64,000 nt of DNA from Helicostylum pulchrum. Lineage: Eukaryota > Mucoromycota > Mucoromycetes > Mucorales > Mucoraceae. The translations under genes were made by a program, and so were the position numbers. Below the pieces are notes generated by a model. It made no database searches, was not told where the DNA came from, and saw only the letters and a list, made by a program, of their open reading frames with translations. Position 1 is the first letter of the stretch, and each line of letters begins with the position of its first letter. The DNA is taken from positions 1-64,000 of the forward strand of contig JAIXMO010000033.1 in the NCBI GenBank assembly GCA_025677825.1. Direction: 5' to 3'. Of the stretch, positions 43,676 through 50,460 are shown piece after piece.

Positions 43676-46471
43676 CTAATAATCTTCTTCATCATAATAC
43701 TCTGGTTCATCATCATCTTCACCAAAGGTATACTTTGCACGTGCATCTCGTAACAAACGTTCATCATCAGCCATATCATCCGAATCCATTTCCTCATCAT
43801 CGTCTTCCTCCACGACCTCCGCAGGCTTTTCTTCCTCATCATCAGATCCACTTGTTTTCTTTGGTGCGTTAGGATCGGGTATATCTCCAGGCTCTTCCAC
43901 GACTTCGTAGACGGGAGCTACAGTTATCGGACTGGCGGCATTTGCACTAAGTTTCAAGATCGCGTCTCTTTGTTTGATCTTTGCAATCGATTCCGCAGAC
44001 TCAAACATATCATCAAACACCTCTTGATTAATCTTTTTCGAAAGTTTCTTATTCATCAATAATTGTTTTGCTGCTTCAGCCGGTGTAGAAGGTGGTGGCA
44101 ACTTCTTCTTCTTTCCTCCTTTACCCTTACGATGTGAGTAGTTTTTGTTGCTTTCAAGCACACGACGTACTGCCATTTCTTCTAAATAGTCCTTATTGGC
44201 GTTGTACCAAATCTTTGTCTTCAATGCTACCTCTCGGTCTGTTAAAATCATTGCTTCGATTTCTTCATCGTCTACATCCGACAAGTTTCCGTCTTCGTCT
44301 TCATCCTCTTCGTCTTCTTCATCCTCCTCTTCTTCTCCATTTTTATCAGCTGCATGCTTTGTTTTTTCAAGTTCTGCTGCGGCCTTGTTAATAGATTCAT
44401 CACCTAACCATTGTTCCATATCATCAGCAATGATCCTTGTGTCTTCTTGAAGTTCAGGATTTAATAATTCCGCGACTTCATTTGCAACCTTTGCTTTAGC
44501 CATTAATGTCAATGCTCTCTTTTCCTCCGTTGTAAGATGCTCAAAGGCCGGATCCTTGATGGTGATAATACTAGGATCTTCTGTATCATTGTTAACCTCT
44601 TCAGAATTTTCAATTTCTTTTAATATCAAGTCTTCATTAGAGGCGGTGGTAGCCAAAGTACAGTCTTCTCCTGCTTCCTTAATTCCTTCATTTAAAGAAT
44701 CTTCAATTTCCTTTAAAATCAAGTCTTCCTCAGTCGGTAATCCTTCCGAGACATCTACTCGAGGACCCTTGAATGGTCCGACGATTTCATCATCTGATAA
44801 TGCTTCGTCTGCAGAACCCTCGACATAATATTTCTTATCTTGTTGGCTGCTTCTATCCACAGCTTTTCCTTTATTCTTTTTAGCGGTCCTTTTCTCTTCT
44901 GCCTCTTCTTCTTCGTCACTTGATTCTTCTACATTAATCTCTTTTCCTAACGATGATGTAGCAATATCCATTTTACGTTTCCTGGATGCTGGCAATCCTA
45001 CTTTCTTATCTTTATCTTGTTGGCTGCTGTCGACAGATTTGCCTTTACTCTTTTTACTAGGTCTTTTATCTGCCTCTGCCTCTTCGTCACTTGGTCCTTC
45101 TACATCTATTTCTTTACTTAATGATGAAGGCTTTGATGTATCTCTCTTACGTTTTCTAGATGCTGGTACTACTTCTTCTTTATCTGACTCGTCATCAGCA
45201 TCAGTATATTTATGTTTTACTGTTGTATTCTCGTCTTCCGACTCATCTTCCGATTCATCACGTTCTTCTTCCACTTCATCTTTTTCGTCGTTTTTTTTAG
45301 CTTCTACCGTTCTACTCGATTCGCCCTTTCTGTTTTTCTGATACGAAGGTGGATCTGCCCGATTCTCTAACCAAATCGTTCTGAAATCACGAACAGAGAG
45401 CTGAGACGATTCCGTCTGGTTGAACTCCTTTAATCTCTTTTGAATGGTGATATCCGCTACTTTGACAACATAAATCATTTCACGTGTTGTTCTACGGAAC
45501 CCGTTCATACGCGCTGCAATCAGTAAACATGCACCACAGATACCGGCCGGTCGACGACCACTGGTGATCCAATCACGATCCATACGCTGTGCAATACGTA
45601 CTGCATCTTGTGCCACACGTTGGGTATAATCACCAAAATCTAGCGCAACTGCAAACCGAGAGATGTATAAAGAAGGATCGACGTGGGGTAAAGTAAGATT
45701 TAACACTCTGCATAATTTTAAAAACGTTGCACCAAGCGTAAACACATTAACCTAAACATAGATTTGTTTTTAAGTAAAAATTACAAGGTAAAAAGGGTAG
45801 GTTTTTTTTTTTTTACCTGAAGAATATCTGAGAAATCAATCAACATGTGTGAACTCTTTTCTGTTCTACAGACAGCATATAAACAAACCGCAGCAACAAA
45901 GTCACTACGACGACCACGCGTAAATCGATTGACTACAGCTAGATTATAATATCTTTGTGCTGAGTCTCTGTAACGCTCTGGTAAATGCACAGCATGCGCT
46001 AAACTAGAAATCTTTAAACGACCTACAACAATCACCATACATTAGTAAATCTAGATATCTGCGTATTATTTTTTTTAGTAGTATTATATTTACCATTTTC
46101 AATAGCTTGTTCTTGACCTTCTCTACCACGGCTTCTACCAAATAAACCACCACCAGAAATTCGACCTATTGGGGCCGTGTCAGAATAATAATAATAATAA
46201 TAATAAAAAAAAATTACAATTCTCTTTTTTTTACCTGATTCACCAGCATATGAACCTTGAACTACTGCTTTACCACCAGAAGTTTCTGCAAAAGCAACTT
46301 CAGAAACAATTCTATTCTCTTCCAGTACCTTTATTTTTTACTTTAGTTAAATCAACTCTATAACACAAGTAACCAAAAAAAAAAACTTACCACACCACAA
46401 TTAACACAGACACTAATACCAGAGGCATTATCTACTTCCGTTTTATCTGACCCACAGTTATGGCAAGGCAT
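43676..46471 (-). CDS. BRF1: TFIIIB subunit Brf1
   Basis: RNA polymerase III initiation factor, TFIIB-related. Exons (minus): 46471-46391, 46328-46235, 46165-46094, 46022-45817, 45751-43676; 842 residues, longer than yeast Brf1 (596). The zinc ribbon is MPCHNCGSDKTEVD...CVNCG (Cys 3, 6, 22, 25). The B-linker and two cyclin repeats span about 83-265 (RYYNLAVVNRFTRGRRSDFV, VAQDAVRIAQRMDRDWITSG, RRPAGICGACLLIAARMNGF). A long acidic/Lys-rich spacer (about 300-540) contains an internal duplication centred on PASRKRK. The conserved Brf1 C-terminal block, which in yeast binds TBP, includes ILTDREVALKTKIWYNANKD and YLEEMAVRR. The end is Asp/Glu-rich (EPEYYDEEDY). Introns are small and phase-consistent. 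Confidence 0.96.
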
Positions 46472-46742
46472 TGCGTTTTTTTTTAAATAATATAAACTAT
46501 ACGGACAGAAGAGGAGAAGACAACAAAGTGGGTGAAAAAAATAAAATAAAATAAAAATAAAAAAAAAAGTTCGTCTCTTTCAATTGAGGGCAGTCACGAT
46601 CATCCGCCTTGACAATGAAACGTTTCAGGACACAGTAAGGTATCTCATTGTATACATTGGTAATTGGAATCAATTGTGATAAAACAAAGATATCTGGTTA
46701 CGCAAAGATTTAAAACAAAAAGAGAGAAAAGAGGAATCATTT

Positions 46743-47105
46743 ATGCGTAATTGCTTAGAAACATATTTATTTTTTTCAGGCACAAGAAACGTTCAATTGG
46801 GGACAAATGTACTATCTAATTCTAAGAAAACATGCTATTTACCACAGCGCGGCTATATGTATCTTTCTGTACAGCAAACAAAGAGTCTAAATCGTAGACT
46901 TCGTCAAAAGCCGAACCAGCAACAAGACACCGTCTCAATGTCTTCGTCGTAGAGACAGCCGGAACCCGACACCTCAGAAACTGGATCTGCAGACAAGAAG
47001 ACGGTATCGTCCAGTACAACCAAGTATACTGGCAGCGCCTTGCTTTGCGCTTTTCTTCATTCCGTAGAAGCCATAAGTTTATCTGGAGCAGAAGGCCCAA
47101 TTGTA
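46743..47105 (-). pseudogene. frameshifted ORF relic next to foldback element
   Basis: The minus strand reads APDKLMASTE, a TGA stop, then RKAQSKALPVYLVVLDDTVF, LSADPVSEVSGSGCLYDEDI, ETV. Continuing one frame over gives CLVAGSAFDEVYDLDSLFAV, QKDTYSRAVVNSMFS and a TAG stop. Two overlapping frames, one internal stop and a GC content clearly above the surroundings point to a broken gene piece. Family unknown. It lies about 50 bp from the left end of the foldback element, so it may be a remnant of mobile DNA; this is inference. Confidence 0.4.
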
Positions 47106-47169
47106 ATTGAGCGATACATATTGCTCTATTTGGTTCTCTCTAAATATATATACAGTTAGCGCAACACTA

Positions 47170-47300
47170 AAGGGCGATTTTTTAAATAAAAGGGCGGTTT
47201 TTAAAATTCTCAATAGGCGGATTTTTTTTTTCCAAAGGGCGGTTATAATTTTCTCAAAAAGCGGTTACTGTTTTCTCAAAAGGCGGTCTCTTCGGTCCTC
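47170..47300 (+). repeat. GGCGG-centred short repeats in arm of foldback element
   Basis: The left arm carries at least six copies of an AAAGGGCGGTT-like motif spaced about 22-27 bases, several followed by TTTTCTCAA; two more copies lie at about 47421 and 47443. The right arm carries the complementary copies. This is a subterminal repeat pattern such as transposases often bind; binding is inference. Confidence 0.7.
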
Positions 47301-47543
47301 AGTAGATATTTTTTACAGTTGTCTGTGACATTTTATTAGATAGAATTGCTTTTTAAGCAACCTTCAAATATGTTTTTAGAGTGGCTGTGTAAATGGCTCA
47401 TAAATAGTTACTTTAGGCTCAAAAGGCGGATTTTTCAAATTGTAGGGCGGTATACAGTCAGGCTTATGGTGATTGGCATTTTCTCAAAAATAATTGGCTT
47501 CAAATCAAAAATAAATGTCTGCTTTTGTCTCGAGTTTAGATTG

Positions 47544-47706
47544 CCGTCCACTTTTTTACTTATTCATTTTGAGCTCGCGTCTACCTCCCGTCCACTTTTT
47601 TACTTATTTGTTTTGAGCTTGCGTCCACCTCCCGTCCATTTGTTACTTATTTGTTTTGAGCTCGCATCCACCTCCTGTCTACTTTTTTTATTTATTCATT
47701 CTGAGC
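47544..47706 (+). repeat. 44-bp tandem repeat, about 3.7 copies, in loop of foldback element
   Basis: Units start at about 47544, 47588, 47632 and 47675 with core CCGTCCACTTTTTTACTTAT and a shared end TTTTGAGCTCGCGTCCACCT. Units differ at a few positions; the last is diverged and runs into the right arm. Confidence 0.8.
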
Positions 47707-47924
47707 CTAAAGTAACTATTTATGAGCCATTTACACAGCCACTCTAAAAACATATTTGAAGGTTGCTTAAAAAGCAATTCTATCTAATAAAATGTCACAG
47801 ACAACTGTAAAAAATATCTACTGAGGACCGAAGAGACCGCCTTTTGAGAAAACAGTAACCGCTTTTTGAGAAAATTATAACCGCCCTTTGGAAAAACAAA
47901 AACCGCCCTTTAGTATTGCGCTAA

Positions 47925-48512
47925 TTGTATATACATTTTTTTTAATTTATCATAAACCTATACATAGGAGAAGTAAAAAAACATACTATTCAAAAAGGAA
48001 AAAAATTACTATAATCACCAAATATCCTAGTATGTGTTTGCGCTACGCCTCCCTCTAATATTCTGCAGCAGAAATTCTTTTAAATAAATGGCCTTTACGG
48101 AGAAAAAACTGTTAGATTGAAGGTGCTTCACTACGTGCACACCAATAGTGCAGGATAGGAGTATTCGCATCGGCACTAAACCAGATTCACGTTCGGTTGA
48201 AATATCAAGGGACTCCTGAAACAAATCGTATTTTTCTCTCTTTTTTGAGAACGTTTGTATCGTACGGAATGATAAAAAACTTCCTAACTACCAGCTTAGT
48301 ACGGTCGATTCAGAAGATACCTAATATCGAGTTGATCCCCAAATAAGCTTCTCAAAAAAAAGATGAGTCGTATTTTTTAAGGGCAAAAGCAACCAATTAA
48401 ACAAGATTTCTTTTTTTAAAAAAATCACGGCGAAAGTAACCCTGAAAACTTTTTTGTACCTTAAAAAAAAAAGTGTTATTGTTGTTGTTTTTTTTTGTTT
48501 GTTTGAAATAAA
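47925..48512. other. intergenic with promoter of Zn2Cys6 gene
   Basis: No gene recognised; short minus ORF at 48027-48224 without features. T- and GTT-rich tract at 48470-48505 immediately upstream of the ATG. Confidence 0.45.
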
Positions 48513-50460
48513 ATGGCAGGAAAAGTGATATCTACTGGAAATAAAGACTTGAGTTGTCTTCGTTGTCGAAAGAAGAAAGCAAAGTAAAAGAAAAAGAACC
48601 CCCTTTTTTTTGTTACTTCTTTTACAGCCTCAACTTACATTTAATTAAATTAGATGTTCTAAAACACGACCTACTTGTACACGATGTTCTCGATCTAATC
48701 AACCAGTATGTTCTCTAACACCACCACCAACCAAAAAAAAAAAGAAAAAAAAAAGAAAAACAAATTTAACGCTCTCCCCTCTTTTTATATAGTGTGAATA
48801 CCCAGATGCACCACCGAATCTTACAGACTTATCCCAAAAAGTACTCACACTCTACGACACCTTAAAAGAACTCGAAGGAGAATTCCTTGTAAAATACATG
48901 CAGACATCCGAAGAAGACAAGCTTGACAAACTCATCAATGGCGAACTCGAACCCGATCCCGAGCCTCAAACCCCATTACAATTACAACACGCCACCACCA
49001 CTATCCATCAATTTGATGTTGATACCAAACCCATTGACGAACCCGCTGGTTGGTCCATGTCCTTATCACCTCGCGGCCTCTCTATCCACGCCGTCACTCG
49101 CAACCTCAGTGAATTCAATGAATTTATCAAGACAGTCTCTGGCCAAGTTATCCGAGACTTCGGCGCAGACTACTTACCTGCGCTGTGGGACCCTGACGCC
49201 GAGGGGTACTTTGAACAGGAATCAGATACCGAGGAATTAGAAGAAGATGAGTATTTAGTTACTGTACCTGTATTCTGTACCAGCTCTTTACTTTCTCGTC
49301 GTCACCACCCACAAACTCAATTAAATACTACAAGCAACACGGAAGACGTATCAATACAGATCCAAAAAATGGTTCCCGATATACTACAGCACCTATTAGA
49401 AAGATATAAGACACTACAACAACAACCCAATAATGTAACACATCATCTAATACAATTAATGCTACAATTAGAAGAGCATTTAAGGCTCTCCTATGAAACC
49501 AGGGACGAACTGTCGTTTATTTGCGTAATTACTGCATATACCATCTCGATTTCGTATTTTCCTCCTACATTAGGAAATAATTCCATAATGCATGATTGCA
49601 TTTGGTACTTAAAAACGATATACCTAGACTACATTTTACGCGTTGAAGCTGCCCCCACTTACCAACTGATTCTATGCTCAGTTCTATTAGGTTGGATAGA
49701 TAATTCCCTAATACCAATTGCCATTCGCTTACTCTGCAACTCGGACTGGCGGCAACAAGATGATGCCAAGTGGCAAGTGTTAATTGCCAGCTTAATTTAT
49801 TTAGATATTGAAAGTGCTACATTTCAGTTTAAATGTTCTCAGATCTATGACGCAAAAGAGGTGATGAAACAATCTGCTGCAACAATAGAACCAACGGAAT
49901 GGGACACGCCTCCGCTGCAAGTCGCGGTGATCATTCTAGAAGCGAAATTAATGTGCCTTTTGAATAAAGTGGTCACGCTTTTTTATCAGGTGGTACAGGT
50001 AAAAGAAGACCAAGTACGCAAGATCGATGTTGATGAAGTGTTGACCCTTGTCAGGGATATGGAGATTTGGGAACAGGAGCTTCCGGATTGGGCGAAATGG
50101 AATGTTATCAAGGAAAATAATAAAGGGTCGGAATTTATAGTACACATGCACATGATTTACAACATGGTCAAGATATTGTTGTTCAGGCCGTTTAGTATTA
50201 CTGTGAACCAAAGTGAAGAAGAACAAACACTTACCAAGACTACGTTTTTAGACTTGTCGATTCAAGCAGCGGATAAGCTGACGACGTGTTTGGTAGATGT
50301 GTCATCGTCGTTTCACGGACAACAACAACAACACTGGAGGAAATCTGCTTGTAACCTAGTAACAGATGTGACAGAAAGAGTAACGAAAATGTTTGATAAA
50401 GATGAGGAGATCGTAGATCGGTTAGAAAAGATACAATCGCGTTTAAACAAATGGGAATAA
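48513..50460 (+). CDS. Zn2Cys6 (fungal binuclear cluster) transcription factor
   Basis: DNA-binding regulator; target genes unknown. Exons 48513-48583, 48654-48705, 48793-50460; 596 residues. The cluster is CLRCRKKKAKC and CTRCSRSNQPC with the spacing C-x2-C-x6-C-x6-C-x2-C-x6-C (Cys 15, 18, 25, 32, 35, 42), split over three exons, one intron falling inside the basic loop. The linker and a short Leu-rich coil follow (LSQKVLTLYDTLKELEGEFL). The long C-terminal part is helical and hydrophobic, as in the fungal-specific regulatory domain, with acidic and Gln-rich patches. The start was chosen because ATG 48513 gives a 14-residue lead to the first Cys and upstream is poly-T. Confidence 0.9.

Follow-up and report, generated by a model that had tools for sequence, protein, structure and literature searches.

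A near-perfect foldback element in Helicostylum pulchrum with the ends of a Tc1/mariner transposon

We propose that a 775-bp hairpin in the genome of Helicostylum pulchrum very probably derives from a Tc1/mariner (DDE_3) transposon, as a non-autonomous foldback element that a Tc1-like transposase mobilises in trans at TA sites. The element is flanked by TA, its ends are common to other elements of the same genome, and its arms are homologous to the 3' end of a transposon; its mobilisation in trans and the history of its construction we infer from the sequence. The window analysed here is a stretch of 64,000 nt of contig JAIXMO010000033.1, and the genome examined comprises 32.2 Mb in 168 contigs; C-numbers denote other contigs and L-numbers excerpted loci. 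The host belongs to the Mucorales, as the first-pass annotation of the window had supposed.

Long-armed foldback elements are well known, and to our knowledge their origin from ordinary short-TIR transposons can rarely be read from sequence. Here a single genome holds a transposase-bearing 3' end, two copies on contig C89 that appear to carry the first end replacement, and the finished hairpin with its junctions mapped. A literature search on Tc1/mariner foldbacks, inverted end duplications and subterminal arrays, covering titles and the abstract openings of the matches listed, showed no foldback from the Mucorales, and the name Helicostylum pulchrum was absent from the papers listed by a separate search; such elements may be in print elsewhere. 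We regard the element as ordinary in kind; its making is well recorded, and the genome that carries it has been little studied.

Anatomy of the hairpin and of elements with the same ends

The features of the element, in window coordinates, are these:

47153-47927: whole foldback element, 775 bp, CAG...TTG, bounded by termini common to its relatives and by TA on both sides
47151-47152: left TA, probable target-site duplication
47928-47929: right TA, probable target-site duplication
47153-47424, plus strand: left arm, 272 bp; inverted transposon 3' end to ~47375, then ~49 bp absent from the C78 and C85 3' ends
47699-47927, minus strand: right arm, 229 bp; complement of the left arm minus two repeat units
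47227-47421: exact core, 195 bp, pairing with 47702-47896
47174-47286, plus strand: left array of six GCGG/GCGA box cores, spacings 20, 23, 22, 22, 22
47837-47906, minus strand: right array of four box cores, spacing 22
47336-47374, minus strand: transposase 3'-end remnant, NIFEGCLKSNSI*; C85 counterpart, NIFEDCLKGNPI* (asterisk, stop)
47749-47787, plus strand: transposase remnant of the right arm, placed by arithmetic from the exact core
47418-47454, plus strand: 37 bp identical to the 5' flank of the C85 transposase pseudogene
47552-47706, plus strand: loop tandem repeats of ~44 bp, three full units and a truncated fourth
47699-47706, plus strand: putative inner copy junction, an 8-bp microhomology, TTTTGAGC, between a tandem unit and the complement of the left arm, now with one substitution

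The arm block 47216-47424/47699-47907 is 99% complementary, 3 of its 209 positions being mismatched, and its halves stand 274 nt apart; the terminal 24-bp block of the arms pairs at 92%. The foldback with near-perfect inverted arms described in the first-pass annotation is thus real, its ends lying 3 bp further out on each side. About 145 bases had been called identical; the exact complementarity holds, but the run is longer, at 195 bp. The unequal arm lengths given there (223 and 266 bases) are accounted for by the box arrays, because the left arm contains six boxes of the 22-bp repeat and the right arm, shorter by 43 bp, contains four. With long inverted arms and a short or absent coding region the element has the structure of a foldback, and no transposase is encoded in it, as had been noted. 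A coding role for a 135-aa frame across the element was rejected, since the frame has no Pfam match at E 0.01, and a known structured RNA was likewise rejected, there being no Rfam match at gathering score in 46500-48600. The element lies on the upstream side of a minus-strand BRF1 gene (TFIIIB subunit; 43676-45751, PF07741 and PF00382), and its other neighbour is a 555-aa open frame on the plus strand (48793-50460) with no Pfam match.

The ends have the form CAG/CAA-TTAGCGCAA, which 11 termini genome-wide carry with 0-2 mismatches (10 independent termini if the duplicated C89 pair is counted once); the terminal reading is CAGTTAGCGCAACACTAAAGGGCGG, with the CAA variant at the window element's right end and at C78. 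TA adjoins all 11, compared with a TA frequency of 8.4% in the window. A search with a 21-base terminal pattern, allowing up to 3 mismatches, found 13 places, 12 of them beside TA, against a single place for the reversed control. The two that differ at 3 positions were not counted: C100 has TA but a different terminus, and C92:359426 has neither TA nor a GGCGG box following it. The terminus count leaves out C85, whose last bases are missing, and C57, C68, C83 and C2, which have different terminal sequences. In the C100 region (C100:193042-193062, L036) there is a MITE-like relative, ~118 bp long and flanked by TA; it has a CAGTCAACGC end, and both ends carry a GGGCGG box.

Searching the genome at the DNA level produced 34 matching pieces, three of which are the window's own. 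The first-pass annotation had allowed that the inverted repeat might be single-copy and had proposed that copies be aligned for target-site duplications; related termini occur elsewhere, so the ends are not single-copy, and TA stands on both sides in four of four complete copies. Besides the window element, these are:

C110:109804-113296: complete copy, 3493 bp, arms ~1.0 kb, 98.6%
C81:375003-377051: complete copy, 2049 bp, arms ~290 bp, 91%
C96:164228-164538: complete copy, 311 bp

Each of the four has its own structure. The C110 element (L009 2305-5797) has ten GGCGG-type boxes at each end of its 1.0-kb arms and a 217-aa open frame at L009 3468-4121 with no Pfam match; no meaningful domain match was found for the C110 frames, and those of C81 gave sub-threshold HTH and IS630 matches only. 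The two C89 copies (L011 283-3117 and L012 273-3137) are a segmental duplication, ~32.5 kb apart and 97% identical over 2.9 kb, that ends inside tandem repeats of the foldback relative, and a separate palindrome of ~150 bp (L012 3339-3489) adjoins the C89b copy. Another foldback, of a different, GTGTCG-rich family, lies on C88 (L034 2500-4261), with arms of 787 bp that are 99.5% identical; short relatives at C1, C13, C109, C123 and C165 have pieces in common with the C110 element.

The parent transposon and the construction of the hairpin

Several observations connect the arms to a Tc1/mariner transposon. At C78 and C85 a homologue of the left arm, 91-92% identical, lies directly 3' of an open frame with a PF13358 DDE_3 domain (E 1.3e-19 and 2.5e-24, respectively), and the arms themselves encode the remnant listed above, comparable with the C85 transposase end. 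The ends of the element are shared with a transposase-bearing member (at the C78 right end, and at the truncated end of C85), the probable target-site duplication is TA, and a related transposase has a Tc1-type DDE triad. The first-pass annotation knew of no foldback family with these ends; they prove to be of Tc1/mariner type, with a TA target and a CAG start, on arms that contain the 3' end of a Tc1-like transposase. These ends and the linked transposase rule out an unknown foldback superfamily, and hAT or CACTA elements, considered because of the CAG start, are ruled out by the TA flanks and DDE_3. C78 lacks its 5' half, and C85 is frameshift-split and without terminal bases; a complete autonomous copy with exactly these ends was not found in the genome, and the original 5' end is therefore unseen.

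The triad was located in a relative on C2 (L068:1785-3382) that is uninterrupted, with 41-bp perfect TIRs, TA flanks and a 466-aa frame. In an alignment of 12 related sequences, D255 and E398 of this frame are invariant and D363 nearly so, and the distance from D363 to E398 is that of DD34E. Its best match by sequence among solved structures is the Sleeping Beauty transposase (E 1.2e-5), and its protein relatives with an organism name, among the matches listed (120 of 213), come from Rhizopus, Mucor, Circinella, Helicostylum, Parasitella, Absidia, Apophysomyces and Rhizomucor. Tc1/Mariner is described as the largest group of transposable elements in the Mucorales genomes studied (PMC7928374). 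At C2:694000-703000 (L068 1780-7368) the Tc1-like element occurs twice in opposite orientations; the copies are 99.8% identical over 1728 bp and enclose part of a 415-aa open frame, forming a palindromic structure of 5.6 kb.

We hypothesize that the hairpin was made in two steps. In the first, an inverted 3' end would have replaced the 5' end during faulty repair or replication, bringing with it its GGCGG boxes, which are arrayed with a spacing of 22 bp and may be transposase sites. In the second, which would be recent, the right arm was recopied from the left along a tract reaching from the TTTTGAGC microhomology in the loop to the GGCGG boxes; the outer rejoining would have taken place out of register within the boxes, so that two units were lost and the old right terminus was kept. 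Both ends would then bear boxes, and the hairpin would be near-perfect. In animals, TIR transposons have been described as undergoing template switching at microhomologies (PMC8277862).

The left arm bears on the first step. Read from outside it consists of the terminus, the box array, the 3' untranslated part and the last transposase codons, all inverted, as far as ~47375. The inner ~49 bp of the arms fall outside the matches to the C78 and C85 3' ends, which stop at query position 220 and resume at 593. On the left side, in the window and in both C89 copies, these ~49 bp run into the 37-bp piece identical to C85, and the two together match the C85 5' flank at 76% over 83 columns. The same left-side order recurs in both C89 relatives, where the junction is ~31 bp longer, and it therefore probably predates the window element. 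As a right end was not recognised in the C89 copies, they fit an ancestral and a truncated state equally well.

The second step concerns the right arm, which is the likelier copy because the left ~49 bp adjoins the 37-bp piece and partly resembles the C85 5' flank; copying from left to right is thus most likely, a direction read from sequence adjacency. The microhomology is found in the three full tandem units and in the complement of the left arm, and the inner limit of the tract falls in the fourth unit. There are 2 mismatches in the outer 24 bp and none in the 195-bp core (post hoc Fisher test, p 0.012); this outer stretch is closest to the C78 right end, with 1 mismatch. We read the right arm as, probably, a conversion-like tract of recent date joined to a right end that is older, and the near-identity of the arms fits recent copying or gene conversion, as was suggested at the outset.

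Alternatively, a single template switch could have made a symmetric foldback at once, the terminal differences being later mutations. This course is simpler, the inner junction at the microhomology fits one switch, and two mismatches in the outer 24 bp could be due to chance. Nevertheless, the outer 24 bp differs where the adjoining 195 bp does not, the right terminus has the CAA variant in common with C78, its second repeat unit matches C89b exactly, and a single switch needs a 43-bp step at the repeats as well. We consider one event possible but, on this evidence, somewhat doubtful, and favor two steps. Because no second copy of the window form was found among the best candidates of the genome DNA search, nothing shows movement since the arms became identical, and the TA flanks may be older than the recopying of the right arm.

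Recurrence, box arrays and RNA silencing

Replacement of the left end by the 3' end appears to have arisen more than once, as judged from three different breakpoints in the window/C89, C81 and C96:164228 elements. The C81 left arm contains an inverted piece of transposase-like coding sequence that is continuous only on the right side, and the C96:164228 left end is an inverted 3' end that takes in more of the transposase gene than the right end. The sequence of the C110 arms is silent as to their origin.

In the longest arrays successive GCGG/GCGA cores are separated by about two helical turns, with offsets from the terminus of ~21, 41, 64, 86, 108 and 130. Phased boxes at 3' ends number 7 at C2, 6 at C85, 6 at C78, 4 at C83 and 3 at C101; on the 5' side there are 2 at C85 and 2 at C2 (1 by a stricter scan), and C101 has three at both ends. 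In a scan of 43 transposase loci, several of them overlapping, chains of at least 3 boxes were seen in nine rows, which represent five places; 33 of the 43 rows had no such chain at either end, and one further row had no transposase match. The longest chain in 300 shuffles of one flank was 2. Neither the array nor its asymmetry is general, as C101 has both ends alike and most rows of the scan are without a chain. From their spacing, the GGCGG boxes may be transposase sites. An array of boxes at one end would be a testable cause of end replacement, and the phased 3' array is a possible reason why such replacement recurred.

One can extend this into a broader scheme, in which a 3' array of transposase sites makes the 3' end dominant in this Tc1-like lineage, and derivatives with an inverted 3' end in place of the weak 5' end arise repeatedly by microhomology-driven template switching and are favoured by the transposase. 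The transposon would thus keep turning into hairpins, some of them feeding RNAi that silences the family. We think it improbable that this scheme holds as a whole.

The element is a natural near-perfect hairpin in a fungal order where an expressed hairpin triggers silencing (PMC3720535), and its RNA, if made, would be a plausible Dicer substrate, as the first-pass annotation proposed. A further reading makes it a natural trigger of RNAi: read-through RNA would fold into a hairpin, and Dicer would cut it into siRNAs by which the parent Tc1/mariner family is silenced, a mechanism proposed for Mu killer in maize. Consistent with this, the predicted fold of the element as RNA is -424 kcal/mol, compared with a mean of -168 for 20 shuffles, and the genome matches the Piwi domain once and the Dicer-dimer domain twice. 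PMC3720535 reports for Mucor circinelloides that carB was silenced by a hairpin construct in 104 of 137 wild-type transformants and that transgene silencing requires dcl-2; Mu killer has a similar end architecture, with both TIRs from one end (PMC3440606). On the other hand, left-arm 21-mer positions number 13 in C85, 1 in C78 and 0 in the intact C2 element (the counts in other relatives being 72 in C110, 36 in each of C89a and C89b, 24 in C96:164228 and 23 in C81). Moreover, the element sits between genes, and the Mu killer paper itself disputes the simple hairpin model (PMC3440606). We judge this role unlikely.

That the element is a member of a MITE family, amplified as a hairpin, is disfavoured and has little to commend it. 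It is short and non-coding, with TA flanks and inverted ends, and the C100 relative looks MITE-like; yet the many similar short copies of such a family were not found, the window form itself recurring nowhere among the best candidates, and the complete copies (window, C81, C96:164228, C110) each differ in structure. Chance or an assembly artefact we consider scarcely credible, since 200 first-order Markov resamplings of the 2 kb around the element gave no exact inverted word longer than 26, against the exact run of 195 bp, the inversion stops where the transposon ends, next to TA, an indel distinguishes the two arms, and the inversion leaves out the loop.

Comparison with known systems

The derivation from Tc1/mariner thus preferred places the element beside the IS630-Tc1-mariner transposons of Mucorales (DDE_3/DD34E), with which it shares TA flanks, the CAG start, the 3' end and a transposase remnant. 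In contrast to these it has no transposase, both of its ends come from the 3' end, and its arms measure 229-272 bp compared with 41 bp in the intact C2 element. Stowaway/mariner-type MITEs are likewise short, non-coding elements with a TA target; the present element differs in that it is not amplified in its window form and in that its hairpin appears to have been copied from one end.

Mu killer, a MuDR derivative of maize, also has both ends from one parent end and part of the transposase gene inverted (PMC3440606). It belongs to a different superfamily, however, and the element described here includes only the last ~13 transposase codons.

Finally, Galileo and Foldback of Drosophila have long, internally repetitive inverted ends like those of the window element. 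Membership of the FB/Galileo family by descent was rejected: the linked transposase is DDE_3, and not of the P superfamily as in Galileo. The repeats here are 22-bp GGCGG boxes, candidate sites only, whereas the tandem repeats in Galileo TIRs are shown to be multiple transposase sites (PMC3688188), and for Galileo and Foldback, too, variants derived by repair have been proposed (PMC4168063).
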